Below, one piece after another: positions 9,527 through 19,445 of a stretch of DNA of 21,654 bases; positions within the stretch are counted from its first letter, which is position 1; the number at the start of each line of letters is the position of its first letter. A program made the position numbers and the translations under genes. The notes beneath the pieces were generated by a model. That model made no database searches. It saw nothing but the letters and a program-made list of their open reading frames with translations, and had not been told where the DNA came from. This DNA is from Chloroflexota bacterium (GTDB lineage: Bacteria > Chloroflexota > Dehalococcoidia > GIF9 > UBA5620): the NCBI GenBank assembly GCA_026389735.1, contig JAPLHH010000170.1, positions 1 to 21,654 on the forward strand, read 5' to 3'.

Positions 9527-10957
9527 CTAAGATAACCGACCTCGCCGCGGATATCGTTGCTGGGACTTAGCTTCACGAACCAGCGGCGATTTTATATCGC
9601 CACGATAATCAGGTGCATTGATATTTAAGACAAGACTGAGGCTGGGGTCAACCATACGCGAGCCGATACGTCTTTCAATACTATCCAAGTCAAAACAGGT
9701 AGTAATCACCGTGGCTAACCTAGCATTATAGCGATAATTTATTAGATGATAGAGCTTTTCTTGTGCCCATGGCGTGGCTGATTGCTCACCAAAATCATCA
9801 AGAATAAGCACCGGGGCCTTCTTAATTTTCTCAAAGAGCTCATCATAGGACAGTCTGCTCTCCGGGTTAAAAGTGGAGCGCAAATAATCGAGAAGGTCAG
9901 TAACCACAATGAACAAGACTGATTTACCTTCCCGGCGCAGATGATTGGCAATGGCAGCTGCCAGGTGTGTTTTGCCACAACCATTGACACCCATGAAAAT
10001 CAACCAGCCCTCCGGGGATTTAGCAAAATTGACGGCATTGCGGTGGGCTTGCTCCAAGCTCTGGCGCTCCTCAGACGAGAGATTTAGCGATTTGTAATCG
10101 AAATTGTTGAAGGCCTTCTTGCTTAATGCCTCTAACTCTATGCTACTGAGGTGCTCCAAAGTCAGTGCCGATTTCCCCTGAATTACACATATAGTGCATA
10201 GCTCAGGGTCAGTCAGATGGCCTCGTAAACTCTCATCAAACTCTTCAACTGGCACATCGGTAGTAATAACTGTAGGTAAGCGGGCATTGAAACGATAATT
10301 GAGCAACTGCTCCAACTTACCTTTAGCCCAGGGGGTGGTAGCTGTCATAGTCAAATCATCCAGGATTAAAAGCGGTGCATTTTTCACGCGCTCAAACAGT
10401 TCGTCATGAGCAATATCACTGCTGGGGCTAAAAGCGCTCCGAAGGTGGTCCAGCAAGTCAGCGGCGCCTATGTAAAAAGCGGGCTGACCCAGGCTCAGCC
10501 GGTAATTGGCGATGGCGCAGGCTAGATGTGTTTTGCCACAACCACTCGGGGCAACCAAAATCAACCATCCCTGAGGTTCATTGGCAAAAGCTTTGGCGGC
10601 TTCATAAGCCCGTGTGAAATTCTGCTGCAATGCGGCTTCGTCGTATCTACCGTTCGGCAAGAGATTATCGAAGGTTAGCCGAGACAGGGCACCAAGATTA
10701 CTGTACCGTTGAAGCTGAGCCAGCTTCTCCTTTTTCAACTCCTCATGTCTGCATCGGCACGGCACGACTCGACTGAAATCAGGACGTCCCGAAGCCGCCA
10801 AAGGATGTACGAAGCCAGCTCCTTTACATATTGGGCAAGCTGAGTCAGGCGAGTTTTCTTCGCCTGACTCACCGCTGGACCATGTGTCCGTACTTGCCCC
10901 TGATGTACTTCTCGCGGTCGTCCTCTTTTTTAAAATCTCTCCCAGGTTTTCCATCAT
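9527..10957 (-). CDS. Double-headed DnaC/DnaI-like ATPase (two fused AAA+ helicase-loader domains)
   Basis: The 476-residue protein resembles two DnaC/IstB-type loaders in series. Residues 41-69 form a small cysteine cluster (CPIC and CRC), as in DnaI-like loaders. Domain 1 has Walker A at 135-143 (VAPSGCGKT, with Ala at the usual first Gly), Walker B at 196-201 (LLILDD) and sensor 1 ITTD. Domain 2 has a canonical Walker A at 323-330 (GVNGCGKT), Walker B at 383-388 (VLILDD), ITTCFD, and GSRMVDPSL with the arginine-finger R434. The matching place in domain 1 is RGHLTDPEL, with His247 instead of Arg. The start, ATG at 10957, has GAAGGT 4 bases upstream and overlaps the DnaD-type gene by 89 bases. 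Context next to dnaB suggests it loads or remodels the replicative helicase. IstB of insertion sequences is unlikely because no transposase is nearby. Confidence 0.88.
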   Translation of the reverse strand: MMENLGEILKKRTTARSTSGASTDTWSSGESGEENSPDSACPICKGAGFVHPLAASGRPDFSRVVPCRCRHEELKKEKLAQLQRYSNLGALSRLTFDNLLPNGRYDEAALQQNFTRAYEAAKAFANEPQGWLILVAPSGCGKTHLACAIANYRLSLGQPAFYIGAADLLDHLRSAFSPSSDIAHDELFERVKNAPLLILDDLTMTATTPWAKGKLEQLLNYRFNARLPTVITTDVPVEEFDESLRGHLTDPELCTICVIQGKSALTLEHLSSIELEALSKKAFNNFDYKSLNLSSEERQSLEQAHRNAVNFAKSPEGWLIFMGVNGCGKTHLAAAIANHLRREGKSVLFIVVTDLLDYLRSTFNPESRLSYDELFEKIKKAPVLILDDFGEQSATPWAQEKLYHLINYRYNARLATVITTCFDLDSIERRIGSRMVDPSLSLVLNINAPDYRGDIKSPLVREAKSQQRYPRRGRLS

Positions 10958-13642: not shown

Positions 13643-14833
13643 CTATGACGTCTGACCAGAGAATTCATCCTTAACCCTGGCTAGAGCTTGAGGTTCACTT
13701 AGAAGGTCAACAACCGTCATAGCTAGAGCTTTAGCCGCATCTAACAGCCCCTTATGACCTGACTCAGAGGCAGCAGCTACGGCAAAATCTGCCGAATGCA
13801 GTAGCACGTCGGGGGAAACAATGGCGACCGAGGGATGAATGGCAGGTATAACCTGGCTGACATTACCCATGTCAGTGCTACCAAAACCAAAGTGAGGTTC
13901 AAAAGGTTCCACCCTCCGGCCCAAAGATTCCAGGTTCTGGGCAAATAGCTGCGCCAAGACTAAGTTATTCTTCATTGGAGCATAGATTATCTCACTCCAT
14001 CTATAGTCCAATCTAGCACCTGTAGCTAGAGCCGCCCCTTCGAAGCAATTTAGAACCTTTTGCTTCAACTCATCAAGGTAGGCATTATCCGTAGCGCGAA
14101 CGAGGAATGTGGCTGCTGAATATGCTGGGACTACATTAGCCGCCTCACCACCATGGGTAATTATGCCATGAATCCGAGCCCTATCTTTGATATGCTGGCG
14201 AAGTGAATTGACAGCATTAAACGCCAAAATCATGGCTTCGAGAGCATTTACCCCCTGCTCAGGATAGGCGGCAGCATGAACTGCTTTACCAAAGAATTCA
14301 ATCTCCAGGCCAATACAGGCCAGTGCTTCAGCAGTCGCTGCGTTACGCACCCCGGGGTGAATTATCATAGCTGTATCCACTCCATCAAAAACACCTTCCC
14401 TCAACATGAACACTTTGCCACCAAAAAGCTCCTCTGCAGGTGTACCGAAAACGACAACCGTCCCACCACAATTGTCGATAACACATTTACTGGCTACACC
14501 AGCTCCTACCGCTGAAGCAGCTATTATATTGTGTCCACAGGCATGCCCAATTTCAGGCAAGGCGTCATATTCGCCAAGCATAGCAATTACCGGTTTACTG
14601 ATGCCATAAACTGCCTTAAAAGCGGTGGTTAAACCCCCAATCCCGTTTTCTACCTGAAAGCCGTTTCTTGCCAGGTAATCAGTCAACCAGGCTGATGCCT
14701 TCTCCTCTTTGAAACCCAGCTCAGGATTGACATGAATCTTGAGGCTTAATTCAATGAGTTCCTGGCGCTGTTGCTCTACCTGCCTGCTTACCTCGGCCTT
14801 CAGTTCCGCCTTTGTCAAAGTCTTATTCGCCAC
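13643..14833 (-). CDS. M20-family amidohydrolase/dipeptidase (PM20D2/AbgB-like)
   Basis: This 396-residue metal-dependent hydrolase belongs to peptidase family M20 and probably cleaves an N-acyl amino acid or small dipeptide. Visible metal and catalytic motifs are GEYDALPEIGHACGHN at about residues 87-102 (C99 and H101 likely ligands), TPAEE at 131-135, IIHP near 158-160, and LLHSADF near the C-terminus. A dimerisation domain sits between. GHACGHN and PAEE place it with PM20D2, AbgB and IAA-amino-acid hydrolases rather than with DapE or ArgE. The annotated start is GTG at 14833. An AAGGA sequence abuts it, so the true start could be the in-frame TTG 15 bases later. No signal peptide is seen. 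The substrate is unknown. Confidence 0.88.
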   Translation of the reverse strand: MANKTLTKAELKAEVSRQVEQQRQELIELSLKIHVNPELGFKEEKASAWLTDYLARNGFQVENGIGGLTTAFKAVYGISKPVIAMLGEYDALPEIGHACGHNIIAASAVGAGVASKCVIDNCGGTVVVFGTPAEELFGGKVFMLREGVFDGVDTAMIIHPGVRNAATAEALACIGLEIEFFGKAVHAAAYPEQGVNALEAMILAFNAVNSLRQHIKDRARIHGIITHGGEAANVVPAYSAATFLVRATDNAYLDELKQKVLNCFEGAALATGARLDYRWSEIIYAPMKNNLVLAQLFAQNLESLGRRVEPFEPHFGFGSTDMGNVSQVIPAIHPSVAIVSPDVLLHSADFAVAAASESGHKGLLDAAKALAMTVVDLLSEPQALARVKDEFSGQTS

Positions 14834-14859
14834 TCCTTGACTTGCCCCCGCAAGTAGCC

Positions 14860-14865
14860 ATTATA
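14860..14865 (-). promoter_or_regulatory. Possible -10 box for the M20 gene
   Basis: On the minus strand, TATAAT lies about 27 bases upstream of the GTG start. No good -35 hexamer is present at 16-18 bases. A small inverted repeat (CTTGC/GCAAG at 14841-14854) sits between the box and the start codon and could shield the ribosome binding region. Confidence 0.35.
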
Positions 14866-14954
14866 CTCCAAGAGCCCGGTACATTCTACCTACGTTGAGT
14901 CAGATATAAGTCATTCTCTGCCGATAATTACCTTAGCTTGACTCGTTCAAATAG

Positions 14955-15200
14955 ATGAGTGACACTATATACCCTGAGGAGGCAGAATTGAAAGCAGATG
15001 ATATGAGTGATTTGGGAGAGCCAAAGAAGGACGAGCTATATTTCTATCTCCAGCGTAGGCAGGCTGTAAATCTTTATCCTCCCTCCCCTAGCGGGAGGGA
15101 GTTAGAGGGAGGGGGTATTATCCCATGTTTCACCCTCACCCTGACCCTCTCACGTCAAGGGAGAGGGAAGATGGTCGAAGACAGAAGTCATCAGCTCTGA
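14955..15200 (+). pseudogene. Possible short gene disrupted by a repeat element
   Basis: The frame begins MSDTIYPEEAELKADD and its first 40 residues are acidic and protein-like (later DELYFYLQRRQAV). From about codon 41 onward the sequence is the G/C-rich inverted-repeat element (PPSPSGRELEGGG, LTLTLSRQGRG), which is not normal protein. There is no ribosome binding site. It may be the remnant of a small gene cut by repeat insertion, or a chance frame. I do not recognise a family. Confidence 0.2.
15078..15170. repeat. Two-hairpin intergenic repeat (MITE/REP-like)
   Basis: Two adjacent inverted repeats are visible. The first pairs TCCCTCCC (15080-15087) with GGGAGGGA (15093-15100). The second pairs CCCTCTC (15145-15151) with GAGAGGG (15161-15167). 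Between them lie purine-rich GTTAGAGGGAGGGGG and pyrimidine-rich CACCCTCACCCTGACCC runs, which can also pair with each other. Elements of this style (CCCTCACCCT...CTCTCC...AAGGGAGAGGG) are dispersed intergenic repeats in many bacterial genomes. Only one copy is in this window. Confidence 0.65.
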
Positions 15201-15251
15201 CCTTAAAAGCAAAAGAGAAGTGTCACCAATATACTGGACGAGTACATTAGC

Positions 15252-15280
15252 TTGACTTTAAAAATATCTCAACTTATAAT
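15252..15280 (+). promoter_or_regulatory. Sigma70-type promoter for the yceD-rpmF cluster
   Basis: TTGACT (15252-15257) is separated by exactly 17 bases from a perfect TATAAT (15275-15280). Transcription would start near 15287, giving a very short leader to the yceD start at 15296 or 15311. This is the best promoter match in the window. Confidence 0.75.
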
Positions 15281-15310
15281 GAGCTAAGTCCGTAAATGTT
15301 AATAGATAAA

Positions 15311-15820
15311 ATGTACATTAATGTTGCCCAGCTACTCAAAGAGCCAGTAGGCTCAAGCCGTAGATACCAAATAGACGAGAGCCTTGGTACGGACGACATA
15401 AATTCTGTTAAGGGTGAGGTAACCTTAATCCGCACCAATCGCGGCATTTTGGTTAAAGGTGAAATGACAGCCGGCGTGACAGGAATTTGCAGTCGGTGTC
15501 TCAAACTGATTGATTGTAAAGTAAACTATGACGTTGAAGAGGAATGTCTTCCTAGCGTAAGCACATCCGAAGCTTTACCTTTACCTGACCAGACTGATAA
15601 CATTACTATTGACGAGAGCCACATGCTGGACTTAAGCGAAACGATACGCCAATACACCTTGCTGACTATGTCTGCCAAGCCGCTTTGCCGTCCAGATTGT
15701 GCTGGAATCTGCTCATCCTGCGGGCATGACCTTAATCAAGGTCCCTGCCAATGTCCGTCTCATGCCTATGACCAGCGCTGGTCAAAACTAATCCGCTTGG
15801 GGAAGGAGAGTAAAACCTAA
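15311..15820 (+). CDS. YceD/DUF177-family protein
   Basis: YceD proteins are small cytoplasmic proteins encoded beside bL32 in many bacteria and linked to 23S rRNA accumulation; the exact role is unclear. The protein has the conserved zinc-type cysteines CSRCLKLIDC in the centre and CRPDCAGICSSCGHDLNQGPCQC near the C-terminus. The frame extends to ATG 15296, but that start would have a leader of only about 9 bases from the predicted promoter. I prefer ATG 15311 (MYINVAQLLKEPVGSSR), which begins with the family's usual N-terminus and gives 169 residues. Neither start has a good ribosome binding site. The stop abuts the rpmF start codon. Confidence 0.88.
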   Translation: MYINVAQLLKEPVGSSRRYQIDESLGTDDINSVKGEVTLIRTNRGILVKGEMTAGVTGICSRCLKLIDCKVNYDVEEECLPSVSTSEALPLPDQTDNITIDESHMLDLSETIRQYTLLTMSAKPLCRPDCAGICSSCGHDLNQGPCQCPSHAYDQRWSKLIRLGKESKT

Positions 15821-16021
15821 ATGGCGTTACCAAAGAGAAAATATGCCAAATCACGGCAAGGGAAAAGGCGCAGTCACCTAGCTCTGAGCATCCCTAAATT
15901 GGTTGATTGCCCTCAATGCCATACTCCCAAATTACCTCATCATGTCTGTCCTACCTGCGGTACCTATGCAGGAAGGGAAGTGGTTGAGATTAAGACCCCG
16001 AAGAAAACACCCGGCCAGTGA
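15821..16021 (+). CDS. rpmF: 50S ribosomal protein bL32
   Basis: This 66-residue protein begins MALPKRKYAKSRQGKRRSH, the standard bL32 start. It has a complete zinc ribbon, CPQC...CPTC (VDCPQCHTPKLPHHVCPTCGTY). The ATG follows the yceD TAA with no spacing, and a GGAAGGAGAG Shine-Dalgarno lies within the end of yceD. The pair yceD-rpmF is conserved across bacteria and often precedes fatty-acid synthesis genes, as it does here in altered form. Confidence 0.95.
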   Translation: MALPKRKYAKSRQGKRRSHLALSIPKLVDCPQCHTPKLPHHVCPTCGTYAGREVVEIKTPKKTPGQ

Positions 16022-16121
16022 GGACTAGCATTAGAGACATAACCATCTCGGAAAACCGTTGGACAAGTGAGACTAAGAAAATGATTGCCCCCTCAGTAAA
16101 TTTGAATTACAAGGAGGAGAC

Positions 16122-17066
16122 ATGGTAGAAGCAATAAAAGTCGCTTATGTTTTCCCCGGACAGGAATCTCATTCTGTAGGCATGGGGTTAGACCTTTATG
16201 TTCATTATTCTTCAGCCCGGGAAGTTTTCGATGAAGTTGACAAAGCTCTGGGTTTCTCTCTGTCGCGTTTATGCTTTGAAGGCCCTCCAGACGACCTTAA
16301 GCAGACCGTCAATGTACAGCCAGCCGTATTGACCACAAGTGTTGCCTGCCTGAGGGCAGCTCAGGAGATTAGCAACAACGGCATACCAGAGCCCACCTTC
16401 GTCGCTGGACATGACGTGGGCACCTACGCAGCTCTGGTAGCTGCTGGTGCTCTCAGCTTGTCTGATGCCGTGCGCTTGATTCGCGAGAGAGGACGATTAA
16501 TGAACGAAGCTGGGCAAAGAACAGTCGGCGGCATGGTATCTATGACCGGCCTGGATATAGAAGTCTTCAAGAACATCAGCTTCTCCACAGGTGTTGAGAT
16601 TGCCTATATTGACGCTCCAGACCAGGTCACCATCAGCGGCAACCAGGAAAGCCTGACCAAAGCCAAGAGGCTAGCACAGATAAAGGGGGCTCGCCGCATT
16701 ATCCCACTGAGAGTAAGCGGACCATTCAATTCCACTTTAATGGAGCCGGCCATAGAAAGGCTAAGAAATACCATCTCGGAGTTTACCTTTAACAAACCAT
16801 CAGTCCCGGTTGTGGCTAATGTTACTGCCCAGCCGCTTACCGACCTGGAAGCGATAAAAGAGGAGCTGGTTAGCCAGATTGTCCGGCCGGTTCAATGGCA
16901 GCAATCTGTTGAAACTATGATCGCCCGAGGAGTAACCACCTTCTTTGAGATGGGGCCTGGTGAGGCACTGACCAAGTTGACTAAGCGAATCAGCCCCGGA
17001 GCACAGACCTTTAACATCAGCAGTGCTCAAACCATCAGTGAAATAACAAGATGGCGCAGAGGATAA
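16122..17066 (+). CDS. FabD-like protein lacking the catalytic Ser and His (likely pseudo-transacylase)
   Basis: The fold is that of malonyl-CoA:ACP transacylase: VFPGQESHSVGMG at residues 10-22 (Q14 kept), LSLSDAVRLIRERGRLMNEA at 111-130 (carboxylate-binding Arg kept), VTISGNQE, VSGPFNSTLMEP at 198-209, PVQWQQSVE and FFEMGPGEALTKLTKRI. Two key residues are changed. The nucleophile motif GHSxG reads GHDVG at 96-100, so Ser is Asp98. The usual VSGPFHSPLM reads VSGPFNSTLM, so the catalytic His is Asn203. Normal transfer through a serine ester is therefore not expected. The 314-residue frame is intact and its ATG has a strong AAGGAGGAG site, so the protein is probably made. It may act as a structural, regulatory or binding protein. 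A non-canonical enzyme using Asp98 cannot be excluded. Confidence 0.85.
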   Translation: MVEAIKVAYVFPGQESHSVGMGLDLYVHYSSAREVFDEVDKALGFSLSRLCFEGPPDDLKQTVNVQPAVLTTSVACLRAAQEISNNGIPEPTFVAGHDVGTYAALVAAGALSLSDAVRLIRERGRLMNEAGQRTVGGMVSMTGLDIEVFKNISFSTGVEIAYIDAPDQVTISGNQESLTKAKRLAQIKGARRIIPLRVSGPFNSTLMEPAIERLRNTISEFTFNKPSVPVVANVTAQPLTDLEAIKEELVSQIVRPVQWQQSVETMIARGVTTFFEMGPGEALTKLTKRISPGAQTFNISSAQTISEITRWRRG

Positions 17067-17111
17067 TCACTCACACTCCAGACCATAATATAGTGGCTGC
17101 GCTTAATCAGA

Positions 17112-18293
17112 TTGCCAGACCTCAGGGTTCTAATAGCCGAGATGCTGAAACGTAGCCCATCCCCCAGAACCGCTGCCATCTGTAATCACTGCGGCAAGAA
17201 ATCCACCCTCATCTCTAAGACCCTCGGCCTATGTACTGATTGTATCCGCCACGACTTCCAAAAGGTCGAGCCCACAATCCAGGAAGCACATCAGAAATCA
17301 AGGCAGTCCTTCAACCTGCCGCTGCAACCGCCGAAGACAAATAATGGCGTTGCTTGCCATCTATGCCTTAACGAATGTCAACTTTCGGAAGGGCAAAGGA
17401 GCTACTGCGGCGTGCGTCTAGCCACAGCAAGCAAACTCACCGGTGCCACTGCAGAAAAAGGCAATGTAAGCTGGTACTACGACCCGCTACCTACAAACTG
17501 CGTTGCCGACTGGGTTTGTCCCGGCGGTACAGGCTCAGGCTATCCTGACTTTGCTTATTGCCCAGGGCCTGAGCGCGGTTATAAGAACCTTGCCGTTTTC
17601 TATCAAGCTTGCTCTTTCGATTGCCTCTTCTGCCAGAATTGGCACTACCGCATAGCAGCAACAAAGCAAAACTGGGTCAGCCCTATGGAACTAGTCGAGG
17701 CTGTTGACGACCACACCTCCTGCATTTGTTACTTCGGCGGCGACCCAACACCTCAATTACCCCACGCCTTGCGTGCCTCTCGTCTCGCCTTAGATAAAAA
17801 TAAAGGACGTATCCTTCGCATTTGCTGGGAAACCAACGGCTCGATGCACCCAGCTTCGCTCAAGCAAGCGGCCAAGCTGTCGCTTGACTCCGGCGGCTGC
17901 ATCAAGTTTGACCTTAAAGCCTGGAATGAGAAGCTGCATATCGCCCTTTGCGGCGTTAGCAACAAAAGAACAATAGAGAATTTCAGCCTTCTCGCCGCCT
18001 ATACAAAGAAAAGACCTGAGCCGCCTTTTCTCATAGCCAGCACCTTGCTCATTCCCGGCTATATAGACGAGCTAGAAATCTCCAGTATCGCCAAATTTAT
18101 TGCCTCTTTAGACCCGAATATACCTTACGCACTCCTCGCCTTCCATCCTGATTTCCTGATGACAGACCTGCCAACAACCTCGCTCCAGGATGCTGAGCGA
18201 TGCCTAAAAGCAGCTAAAGAGGCCGGCTTACGCCGGGTGCGGCTGGGAAACATTCATTTGTTGAGGAATGAATATCAGGATGACTGGATTTAG
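17112..18293 (+). CDS. Radical SAM protein, PflA/AmmeMemoRadiSam-like
   Basis: This 393-residue protein has the radical SAM motif C167-x3-C171-x2-C174 in YQACSFDCLFCQNW, followed by CYFGGDPTPQ (the GGE-like motif) and CWETNGSM. Two cysteine-rich parts precede it: a zinc ribbon at 24-44 (CNHC...CTDC) and CHLCLNECQ...YCGVR at 82-102. This order matches the pyruvate formate-lyase-activating-like enzymes, including the AmmeMemoRadiSam group. No AMMECR1 or MEMO partner is in the window, so the substrate is unknown. The start is uncertain. TTG at 17112 gives 393 residues; ATG at 17142 removes ten residues and fits the family equally well. Neither has a strong ribosome binding site. The 3' end overlaps nusB, so the two are likely co-translated. 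Confidence 0.85.
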   Translation: MPDLRVLIAEMLKRSPSPRTAAICNHCGKKSTLISKTLGLCTDCIRHDFQKVEPTIQEAHQKSRQSFNLPLQPPKTNNGVACHLCLNECQLSEGQRSYCGVRLATASKLTGATAEKGNVSWYYDPLPTNCVADWVCPGGTGSGYPDFAYCPGPERGYKNLAVFYQACSFDCLFCQNWHYRIAATKQNWVSPMELVEAVDDHTSCICYFGGDPTPQLPHALRASRLALDKNKGRILRICWETNGSMHPASLKQAAKLSLDSGGCIKFDLKAWNEKLHIALCGVSNKRTIENFSLLAAYTKKRPEPPFLIASTLLIPGYIDELEISSIAKFIASLDPNIPYALLAFHPDFLMTDLPTTSLQDAERCLKAAKEAGLRRVRLGNIHLLRNEYQDDWI

Positions 18294-18702
18294 ACGGAAG
18301 GCCAGAACTATTGCCCTACAGACGCTTTACGAGCTTGACTGCTCGGCTCACAAGCCGAAGGAGGTTCTGGCTCGCTTGCTGAAGGAGAGAGCCCTGCCGG
18401 ATGAAGCCGCCGATTTTGCTCAGAGCTTAGTCAAAGGAGTTCTTCAGAACAAGAAAGATATAGACGATGTGATTCGAAGGTTCGCTCCAGCCTTCCCTGT
18501 CGAGCAGATAGCCCTCATAGATAGAAACATCCTCCGCCTTGCCATTTTTGAGGTTTTATTCGATAATAGAGTTCCAATGAAAGCAGCCATTAATGAAGCT
18601 GTTGAGCTGGCCAAGAGTTTTGGTAGTGATACTTCTTGGAAATTTGTCAATGGGGTTTTAGGTTCAGTAGTCACTGCTTGTGTAAAGGAAGGGAAACGAT
18701 AG
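18280..18702 (+). CDS. nusB: Transcription antitermination factor NusB
   Basis: NusB works with NusA, NusE (S10) and NusG in antitermination of rRNA transcription. The all-helical family pattern is clear: FRRKARTIALQTLYELDC at the start, then FAQSLVKGVLQNKKDIDDVI, VEQIALIDRNILRLAIFEVLF, VPMKAAINEAVELAKSFGSDTSWKFVNGVLG. All conserved blocks are present. Two ATGs are possible: 18268 (144 residues) and 18280 (140 residues). I prefer 18280 because GAGGA at 18263-18267 is too close to the first; its spacing to the second is 12 bases, long but usable. It overlaps the radical SAM gene by 14 bases. Confidence 0.92.
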   Translation: MTGFRRKARTIALQTLYELDCSAHKPKEVLARLLKERALPDEAADFAQSLVKGVLQNKKDIDDVIRRFAPAFPVEQIALIDRNILRLAIFEVLFDNRVPMKAAINEAVELAKSFGSDTSWKFVNGVLGSVVTACVKEGKR

Positions 18703-18749
18703 GAAGTGACTAAGGAAACTGTACAGGCCTGAATGCCCAGAGGGAAAGA

Positions 18750-19007
18750 ATGGCACGCATTTTGGAAAAGCTTAAGAAAGTGATTGCAGAGCAACTCGGT
18801 GTTGACGAGGAATCAATAGAGCCTTCGGCATCCTTTGTTGACGACCTCAATATTGCCCCCCCCGATTTAGCCGAGCTTATCACAGCCATCGAACAGGGAT
18901 TCAGCAGGCCGGGACGAAAGCTGGAAATATCAGACGAAGACACCGAGAAAATCGTTACCGTTCAGGACCTCATCGACTGCCTCCACGACTACGGCATCGA
19001 AGATTAA
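18750..19007 (+). CDS. ACP-like protein lacking the phosphopantetheine serine
   Basis: The 85-residue protein is an obvious acyl carrier protein homologue: ILEKLKKVIAEQLGVDEESIEPSASFVDDL, then ELITAIEQGF, DEDTEKIVTVQDLIDCL. The phosphopantetheine attachment motif, normally DLGADSLD, reads DLNIAPPDL at residues 32-40, so the serine is replaced by Pro37. It cannot carry an acyl group by the usual 4'-phosphopantetheine arm. The residues GFSRPGRKLEISDED also make the stretch after helix II about 4-5 residues longer than in E. coli ACP. The frame is intact on both sides of the C-rich run at 18855-18863, arguing against sequencing error. A GAGGGAAAG site precedes the ATG. It is last in the cluster with the FabD-like protein, suggesting the two work together. 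Role unknown. Confidence 0.85.
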   Translation: MARILEKLKKVIAEQLGVDEESIEPSASFVDDLNIAPPDLAELITAIEQGFSRPGRKLEISDEDTEKIVTVQDLIDCLHDYGIED

Positions 19008-19126
19008 GTGTCCTTGGTAATCTCCACCTTAGCAGTATAAGCAAAAATGGTTTTTGGCTTTTCCTAGAAATCCCCTCCTTCCGAACCTGTGTGTCAGCAC
19101 TTTCTGAACTTACCCACCAAGTTTAG

Positions 19127-19243
19127 ATGCCTTACTACAGAAACGTTCGAGTCCAGTATGGTAGCCCGCATTGGAAGGATACCGAACTCGTGTTTGAGAG
19201 GAAAGGACTTATCCCTGCTTTGCAGCAGTTATTTGTTAAGTAG
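19127..19243 (+). pseudogene. Small ORF or C-terminal gene remnant (38 codons)
   Basis: The frame starts MPYYRNVRVQYGSP and ends HWKDTELVFERKGLIPAL...FVK. Its second half is repeated about 100 bases downstream with mostly conservative changes at the protein level (ELVFERKGLIP against ELLFEKNGLIP), which suggests both were once coding. An in-frame stop directly precedes the ATG and there is no ribosome binding site, so this is more likely a remnant of a larger gene than a working small protein. I do not recognise the family. Confidence 0.35.
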
Positions 19244-19327
19244 GGTCACCTGTGGGCAGGCGACACCTAGGAATTGGATACGAACTTCTCTTTGAGAAAA
19301 ATGGGCTTATTCCATTTTGCAGTAGTA
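19169..19327 (+). repeat. Degenerate direct repeat (two copies of about 55 bases)
   Basis: Copy 1 at about 19171-19230 and copy 2 at about 19274-19327 share blocks GGATA-CGAACT, TTTGAGA, CTTAT-CC and TTTGCAG-AGT. Copy 2 lacks 4 bases near its start and 1 base near its end relative to copy 1, breaking its frame. This looks like a tandem duplication of coding sequence that has since decayed. Confidence 0.6.
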
Positions 19328-19445
19328 TAAACGATGCCATGTGAATCTTATTGCTAGTGAAAGACATTGAGAGTAAAATAATAATTATTCTAGAAAGAGC
19401 CGTGATTTGATTCAGGAGCTTGAGATGCAGAGGGGGGTGACTGTT

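Follow-up and report, generated by a model that had tools for sequence, protein, structure and literature searches.

The window (the whole stretch of 21,654 nucleotides analysed here) encodes homologues of the fatty-acid synthesis (FAS) proteins FabD and acyl carrier protein (ACP). Both have lost their active sites, share an operon with ribosome genes and are retained under purifying selection, in genomes that encode intact copies elsewhere or in which no FAS II was detected. This dead pair, kept beside ribosome genes even where no other FAS machinery was found, has probably been put to a non-enzymatic use.

The two genes belong to an operon that also contains yceD, rpmF and nusB, as a sequence-only reading of this DNA had it. 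All its genes are co-directional on the + strand in the order yceD-rpmF-fabD-radical SAM-nusB-acp (Table 1). Sigma-70-type sites like the one before yceD number eight in 14800-19400, against a mean of 4.5 in shuffles. Published work on DUF177/YceD reportedly concerns 23S rRNA accumulation. The radical SAM protein scores 84.8 bits against TIGR04337, under its cut-off of 220.

Table 1. Features of the operon, in window coordinates
Feature	Position	Strand	Basis
Sigma-70-type promoter-like site TTGACT-17-TATAAT, 15 bases before yceD	15252..15280	+	pattern match only, 11/12 consensus
yceD (DUF177, 23S rRNA accumulation protein)	15296..15820	+	PF02620 83.1 bits, cut-off 33.2
rpmF, ribosomal protein L32	15821..16021	+	TIGR01031 84.7 bits, cut-off 22.6
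FabD (malonyltransferase) homologue without catalytic Ser/His	16122..17066	+	TIGR00128 290 bits, cut-off 260.9
Radical SAM protein (AmmeMemoRadiSam-like)	17112..18293	+	PF04055 63 bits, cut-off 29.5
nusB	18268..18702	+	TIGR01951 135 bits, cut-off 88.35
Acyl carrier protein homologue without phosphopantetheine Ser	18750..19007	+	PF00550, NF002148, alignment to 1l0h

The acp homologue is an open frame of 85 aa. It scores 28.2 bits against Pfam PF00550 (cut-off 20.8) and 74.9 bits against the NCBIfam ACP subfamily NF002148 (cut-off 71), and stays below the cut-off of the ACP equivalog TIGR00517 (60.7 vs 70.45). The alignment with E. coli ACP (1l0h) is near full length except for five added residues after helix II. 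It places P37 on the phosphopantetheine Ser, which confirms the earlier observation that APP (A36-P37-P38, bases 18855-18863) stands in place of DSL. The bases at this site include a run of eight C. APP is not a sequencing slip, because Ser37 occurs in none of the best 120 of 424 homologues (P 95, A 18, L 5, Q 1, H 1) and the ACP of locus L001 likewise reads APP. Position 38 is Ser in 56 of these 120 and P, E, A or R in 64. The protein thus has P37 for the Ser of a functional ACP, and its model retains the four-helix fold (helices 2-16, 37-51, 62-67 and 71-80; pLDDT 83.7). With TM values of 0.78-0.84 to the top five solved ACPs, the model agrees with the earlier view that the rest of the fold is conserved. 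By their entry titles, the structural matches include ACP bound to ISD11/NFS1 and to MukBEF.

We take V41, M45 and A74 to line the acyl pocket of E. coli ACP. The protein of the window has A41, T45 and L74 at these positions; when 24 distinct Ser-less sequences were compared with 55 intact ones, V41A was found in all 24 of the former, M45T in 22 and A74L in 19. Acidic positions are kept in the Ser-less ACPs (D39 in 23/24, E42 and E48 in 24/24). Compared with AcpP, the homologue therefore shares the fold and an acidic helix II and differs in the missing Ser, the replaced pocket positions and the longer loop after helix II. The sequence-only reading had the length of this loop right, at five residues more than in E. 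coli ACP, but the loop does not mark Ser-less proteins: it is also present in nusB-linked ACPs of other Dehalococcoidia that are intact and bear DSL.

The neighbouring FabD homologue had also been suspected of being dead, and it is. We take Ser98 and His203 to be the catalytic residues of FabD and R123 to bind the malonyl carboxylate. Aligned with E. coli FabD (1mla), the window's protein reads GHD98VG for GHSxG (D98 at 16413-16415) and has N203 (16728-16730) at the His position, and R123 is retained. It therefore has neither the GHSxG Ser nor the His expected of an S-malonyltransferase and does have the malonyl-binding Arg. Among the best 120 of 6759 homologues, position 98 is occupied by D (87), G (27) or S (6) and position 203 by N (78), Y (31) or H (11); Arg123 is present in all 120, as it is in 24/24 dead loci. 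The model (pLDDT 92.9) superimposes on E. coli FabD (6u0j) with a TM of 0.91. The protein is thus a full-length homologue of bacterial FabD, above the equivalog cut-off and 38% identical to the E. coli enzyme in the structural alignment, but its database name is misleading because the catalytic Ser and His are absent. Since TIGR00128 and NF002148 both score above cut-off and database entries are named accordingly, FAS steps may be attributed to genomes that lack them. One FabD of this kind (P0196), 80% identical to that of the window, is filed under a Bathyarchaeia MAG, probably through a binning error.

To place the pair in a wider family, genomes were scanned with a FabD alignment; the best 80 of 541 matches came from Dehalococcoidia and other Chloroflexi by record title. 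The order yceD-rpmF-fabD-(radical SAM)-nusB recurs across these best 80 of 541 loci, and by our own count an ACP follows nusB in 46 of them. The loci without it have missing ends, or are second FAS clusters (L023, L025, L026, L029), or belong to one group with intact FabD (e.g. L030, L032, L036) in which no ACP was seen after nusB. Other Dehalococcoidia carry intact fabD and acp copies at this same locus. Beyond the clade defined below, FabD has the motifs GHSxGE/AFH (GYSLGE in two copies) and the ACP linked to nusB has DSL.

From 104 distinct FabD ORFs, 62 have a nusB-type ACP on the same stretch. Both sites are lost in 18 of these two-gene loci and neither in 42; one locus (L009) has lost the ACP Ser only and one (L021) the FabD Ser only. 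Ser-less ACP and Ser-less FabD thus co-occur in the same gene order, as anticipated, and the association is strong (Fisher p 1.9e-13, kinship ignored). The further claim that the loss was strictly coordinated did not hold. In L009 the FabD is intact and the ACP dead; in L010 and L022 the FabD is intact and the ACP has lost its Leu and kept its Ser; and in L021 the FabD is dead and the ACP Ser kept. Judged by this distribution of motifs, the two losses are linked and not simultaneous. Intact FabD with a full DSL is found in 40 of the 62 loci, and in two others only the Ser of the ACP motif remains. The possible refutation named earlier, that relatives have an intact DSL, is therefore borne out outside the clade but not within clades A and B (described below), which dates the loss and does not refute it.

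A FabD tree of 99 rows, calculated with the active-site columns removed and five odd or short rows dropped, unites 24 dead and four live syntenic copies as a single clade with an SH-aLRT of 99. Nine second FabDs (FabD2) from separate FAS clusters adjoin this clade in a wider group (SH-aLRT 92) of unresolved inner order; L165, the long-branched second copy of G005, is not part of that group. The 24 dead rows comprise clade A (10, including the window), clade B (13) and L021. A tree built from five genes of the neighbourhood has L020, with both sites intact, branching first, followed by L021, L009, L010 with L022, clade A and clade B. A single origin of all dead FabDs (A, B and L021) was rejected on this neighbourhood tree with motif columns masked (p-AU 7.5e-5), L021 being a long branch; the grouping of A with B (support 50/45) was neither rejected nor supported. 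With the all-dead grouping rejected, and provided that a lost Ser is never regained, FabD was inactivated on at least two occasions. L021, from genome G018, shows its own form of Ser loss (GHGLGE, AFYSS) beside an ACP that reads DSS. A second FabD and an ACP in the same G018 bin (L081) are of a different Dehalococcoidia type and may be contamination.

Gly occupies the FabD Ser position in every one of the 13 clade B rows, and the His site has Y or H. Loss extends beyond the catalytic residues: G15, Q17, S98, L99, T103, A140, H203 and G285, which 77 live FabDs conserve to 93% or more, are kept in fewer than a quarter of the 24 dead ones. Conserved basic residues of the dead FabDs (K41, R118, K180, R183, R269, R312) mark the clade and not the loss, because live L009, L010, L020 and L022 have them too (Q at 180 in L010 and L022). 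A gain of basic residues as a sign of neofunctionalisation was accordingly rejected except for G285K, which alone tracks FabD loss, in clades A and B but not in L021. That the basic residues mostly predate the loss fits a second function older than the loss, without proving it. Mean net charge is -3.2, vs -7.1 in live FabDs, and the dead protein is slightly acidic overall. Taken together, the chemistry has been lost and the acyl cavity probably with it, and fold and recognition surface were kept. The radical SAM gene, in turn, is a dispensable member of the operon: only short remnants of it lie between fabD and nusB in L002 and L003, where the FabD and ACP homologues are whole, and the gene was not seen in those clade B loci that were read.

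To determine which organisms retain FAS, we searched 84 draft genomes of the order, of unstated completeness, with a FabF threshold of E <= 1e-20. FabD was found in 78 of them, as a dead syntenic copy in 24, and in the 54 others the best FabD is intact by motif without exception. One of these 54, G351, has a Ser-less ACP (L115) and only FabD2 was found, and may for that reason belong with the dead set. In G009, G010, G017 and G019 the syntenic FabD is the sole FabD found and its active site is kept. Ten dead-FabD genomes bear FabF (G003, G004, G005, G008, G011, G013, G014, G018, G342, G349), and all ten have a second FabD with intact motifs; the G018 copy clusters with those of other Dehalococcoidia, perhaps through contamination. 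G003, assembled as one contig (CP070642.1), has two ACPs and two FabDs, namely the dead pair and an intact pair, the latter in a cluster acp2-fabF-acpS-fabK-fabD2-crotonase-plsX-fabF2.

In the other 14 of the 24 dead-FabD drafts, neither FabF at E <= 1e-20 nor a second FabD was found; in G345 a further piece of FabD lies next to the ACP homologue, where the contig ends. FabF is missing from 14/24 dead-FabD genomes against 2/54 others (G320, G019; Fisher p 1.7e-7, kinship ignored). AcpS was not found in 13 of the 14 FabF-less dead-FabD genomes, G002 being the exception, and is also missing from 10/66 FabF-bearing genomes of the order. As a check on completeness, SecY was looked for in 32 clade genomes; it is found in 30, among them all 14 FabF-less dead-FabD genomes, and missing in G003 and G344. 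Given the AcpS gaps where FabF is present, the SecY gaps and the draft state of the genomes, single gene absences are not proof. An ACP homologue was matched in 13 of the same 14 drafts (not in G343) and is Ser-less in all 13. Among near kin of the window, FabF matches were absent from G001, G002 and G194, and AcpS was absent from the drafts G001 and G194 and present in G002 and G003. Across all 84 drafts, 18 are FabF-less (G001, G002, G006, G007, G012, G015, G016, G019, G020, G032, G194, G320, G343-G347, G350), and AcpS was not found in 16 of them; PlsX was found only in G001, G194 and G019 among the 17 FabF-less genomes tried. Archaeal-type lipids as a cause of FAS loss were rejected as far as PcrB (PF01884) is concerned, which occurs in 0/32 clade genomes with controls positive in 5/14. 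When G001, G002, G194, G006, G007 and G020 were searched at the DNA level for the G003 cluster and flanking sequence, no empty FAS-cluster site could be demonstrated; the matches were the FabD homologue, PlsX and short pieces only, and the adjoining two-component genes were unmatched.

Selection on the pair was estimated as pairwise dN/dS with a Nei-Gojobori script; 20 locus pairs were attempted, with fewer values where a gene was missing. Dead FabDs gave 0.029-0.177 in 13 pairs, of which L012-L149 and L012-L183 represent one locus twice, and some pairs are saturated at silent sites (L018-L019, dS 2.1). Ser-less ACPs gave 0.046-0.133 in seven pairs, one likewise duplicate, and an eighth pair 0.46 at a dS of 0.03. 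In the same dead-locus pairs NusB ranged from 0.09 to 0.32 and YceD from 0.08 to 0.29. Six pairs of live FabDs from other lineages ranged from 0.11 to 0.44, with low dS in several of them, and L010-L022 gave 0.038. By these codon comparisons both proteins are under purifying selection, a strong constraint that we do not claim to exceed that on live FabD. It extends to pairs from FabF-less genomes (L006-L007, FabD 0.034 and ACP 0.046; L012-L149, 0.051 and 0.122). At the amino-acid level, FabD identity is at least that of NusB and YceD in every pair comparable; between the window and L003 it is 87%, with 91% for ACP, 84% for NusB and 68% for YceD. In L012-L149, ACP identity is lower than that of NusB and YceD (88% vs 92% and 89%), and between the window and L001 it falls just below that of YceD (92% vs 93%).

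This constraint bears on the idea that the two genes are decaying relics of an old fab operon, held by their position between essential genes. Such a reading draws on the intact copies elsewhere in ten genomes, on the ancestral order retained at the locus and on an internal TAG in one ACP (G013). We nevertheless hold it very improbable: dN/dS is low in all 13 dead FabD pairs with FabD identity not below that of NusB or YceD where comparable, ACP is similarly constrained apart from the two comparisons just given, and both proteins are whole in L002 and L003, where the radical SAM gene has been reduced to remnants. Least probable of all is a changed chemistry, with Asp98 of FabD acting as a nucleophile or in a hydrolase and ACP modified elsewhere, for example on the next-position Ser of DPS or DAS forms. 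Asp is present in 87/120 FabDs and Ser38 in 56/120 ACPs (best 120 each), but the FabD position is Gly in 27/120 and throughout clade B, where the His site is Y or H, and the shifted Ser is replaced in 64/120. The acyl-pocket residues of ACP have also been exchanged, and AcpS was not found in 13 of the 14 FabF-less dead-FabD genomes.

A decoy regulator, in which the pair competes with live ACP2 and FabD2 or binds malonyl-CoA through Arg123 and reports it, could account for the invariance of Arg123, for the intact modelled FabD fold and for the ten dead-FabD genomes with FabF and a second FabD. It is quite unlikely in our view, as the other 14 have no detectable FabF or second FabD and the pair is still constrained there. 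The same genomes, 14 of 24 without FabF and 13 of those 14 without AcpS, disfavour the sensor of lipid synthesis proposed in the sequence-only reading. That reading is thus partly supported, with an FAS-independent structural pair in place of the sensor. The Ser-less ACP might also be functional alone, as a phosphopantetheine-free scaffold in a cysteine desulfurase or SMC-like complex, for instance, with FabD unrelated or helping it fold. Precedent exists in the Plasmodium mitochondrial ACP discussed below, the structural matches to ISD11/NFS1- and MukBEF-bound ACPs point the same way, and in L009, L010 and L022 the ACP site or its Leu was gone before FabD was touched. We consider this unlikely, since FabD is constrained as strongly as ACP and both sites are missing in 18 of the 20 loci in which either is lost.

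With the chemistry removed and FAS apparently gone from some of these genomes, any remaining function must be a non-FAS one, and an FAS-independent, non-catalytic function of the two proteins is highly probable. Our preferred explanation is that of an FAS-derived pseudoenzyme pair with a structural job, likeliest in ribosome or rRNA biogenesis; taken whole, we put it slightly short of an even chance. The ancestral yceD-rpmF-fabD-nusB-acp locus would have been the source of the cell's FabD and ACP until a self-contained FAS cluster, as in G003, brought its own. The old ACP would then have lost its Leu and later its Ser, and the old FabD its Ser, His and nearby residues. Both would have been retained because they already had a second job, surface-based and free of chemistry. 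This structural job would lie in ribosome or rRNA biogenesis, the two proteins being co-made with YceD, L32 and NusB from one operon. FabD might bind RNA or protein of the pre-ribosome, much as human MCAT binds in the small subunit of the mitochondrial ribosome, and ACP might be an acidic partner of FabD or of another factor. Whether the two form a physical complex is an even call; as the losses are separable (L009, L021), they may not act as a pair.

We lean towards the ribosome because of the operon partners, the findings on MCAT and the phosphopantetheine-free Plasmodium ACP. By analogy with these, a role of FabD and ACP in ribosome or rRNA biogenesis is a tentative possibility, and operon co-location is weak evidence for it because the order is ancestral and intact fab genes sit there too. 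We take human MCAT to have intact catalytic residues and still to serve mitochondrial FAS; the window's FabD differs in that its catalysis is gone and its putative ribosome role is read from gene order only. MCAT, a FabD family protein of the same fold, is a structural assembly factor of the mitochondrial small ribosomal subunit (mtSSU) that sequesters h31 and hinders h42 docking (PMC9892005; PDB 8csp). Our FabD model matches chain entry 8csp_8, from a human mtSSU assembly intermediate, with a TM of 0.86. The mitochondrial ACP of Plasmodium falciparum is retained without phosphopantetheine in an organelle without FASII and is an essential scaffold there (PMC8547962). It is a eukaryotic organelle protein acting on Isd11-Nfs1, whereas the ACP studied here is bacterial and shares an operon with a dead FabD.

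Our literature search found nothing on this pair, on ACP with a malonyl pseudoenzyme, on inactive FabD and the ribosome, or on fabD in the fatty-acid synthesis of Dehalococcoidia. To our knowledge, the association of fab genes with ribosome genes in bacteria (yceD-rpmF-plsX-fab) is unexplained. Here the chemistry of FabD and ACP has been removed and the proteins kept in a ribosome-gene operon, apparently even without fatty-acid synthesis, so that two small proteins make the ribosome-lipid link directly testable. More doubtful is the bolder reading that FabD and ACP form, in a clade of Dehalococcoidia, a catalysis-free ribosome-biogenesis module made from the yceD-rpmF-nusB operon and kept after repeated FAS loss, a bacterial counterpart of MCAT and mitochondrial ACP. 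If true, the ribosome link of FAS proteins would be old and able to outlive their chemistry.

A few minor features complete the description. The ACP copy of L013 (G013:C5:38510-38764) contains one internal TAG, either a sequencing error or a first case of loss. At L107:433-1857 (G121), a 474-aa open frame includes a nusB-type ACP sequence that reads DSS instead of DSL. The remainder of that frame resembles, by eye, a PQQ-repeat lipoprotein, and the whole could be a real fusion or an assembly chimera. On the - strand of the window, 9527-10957 holds a 476-aa ORF with apparently two tandem DnaC/IstB-like ATPase domains, judged by eye from the translation. Downstream of acp, 19089-19340 contains two diverged direct copies, recognised by eye, of a short coding-like stretch (FERKGLIPALQQ and FEKNGLIPFCSS), perhaps gene remnants.
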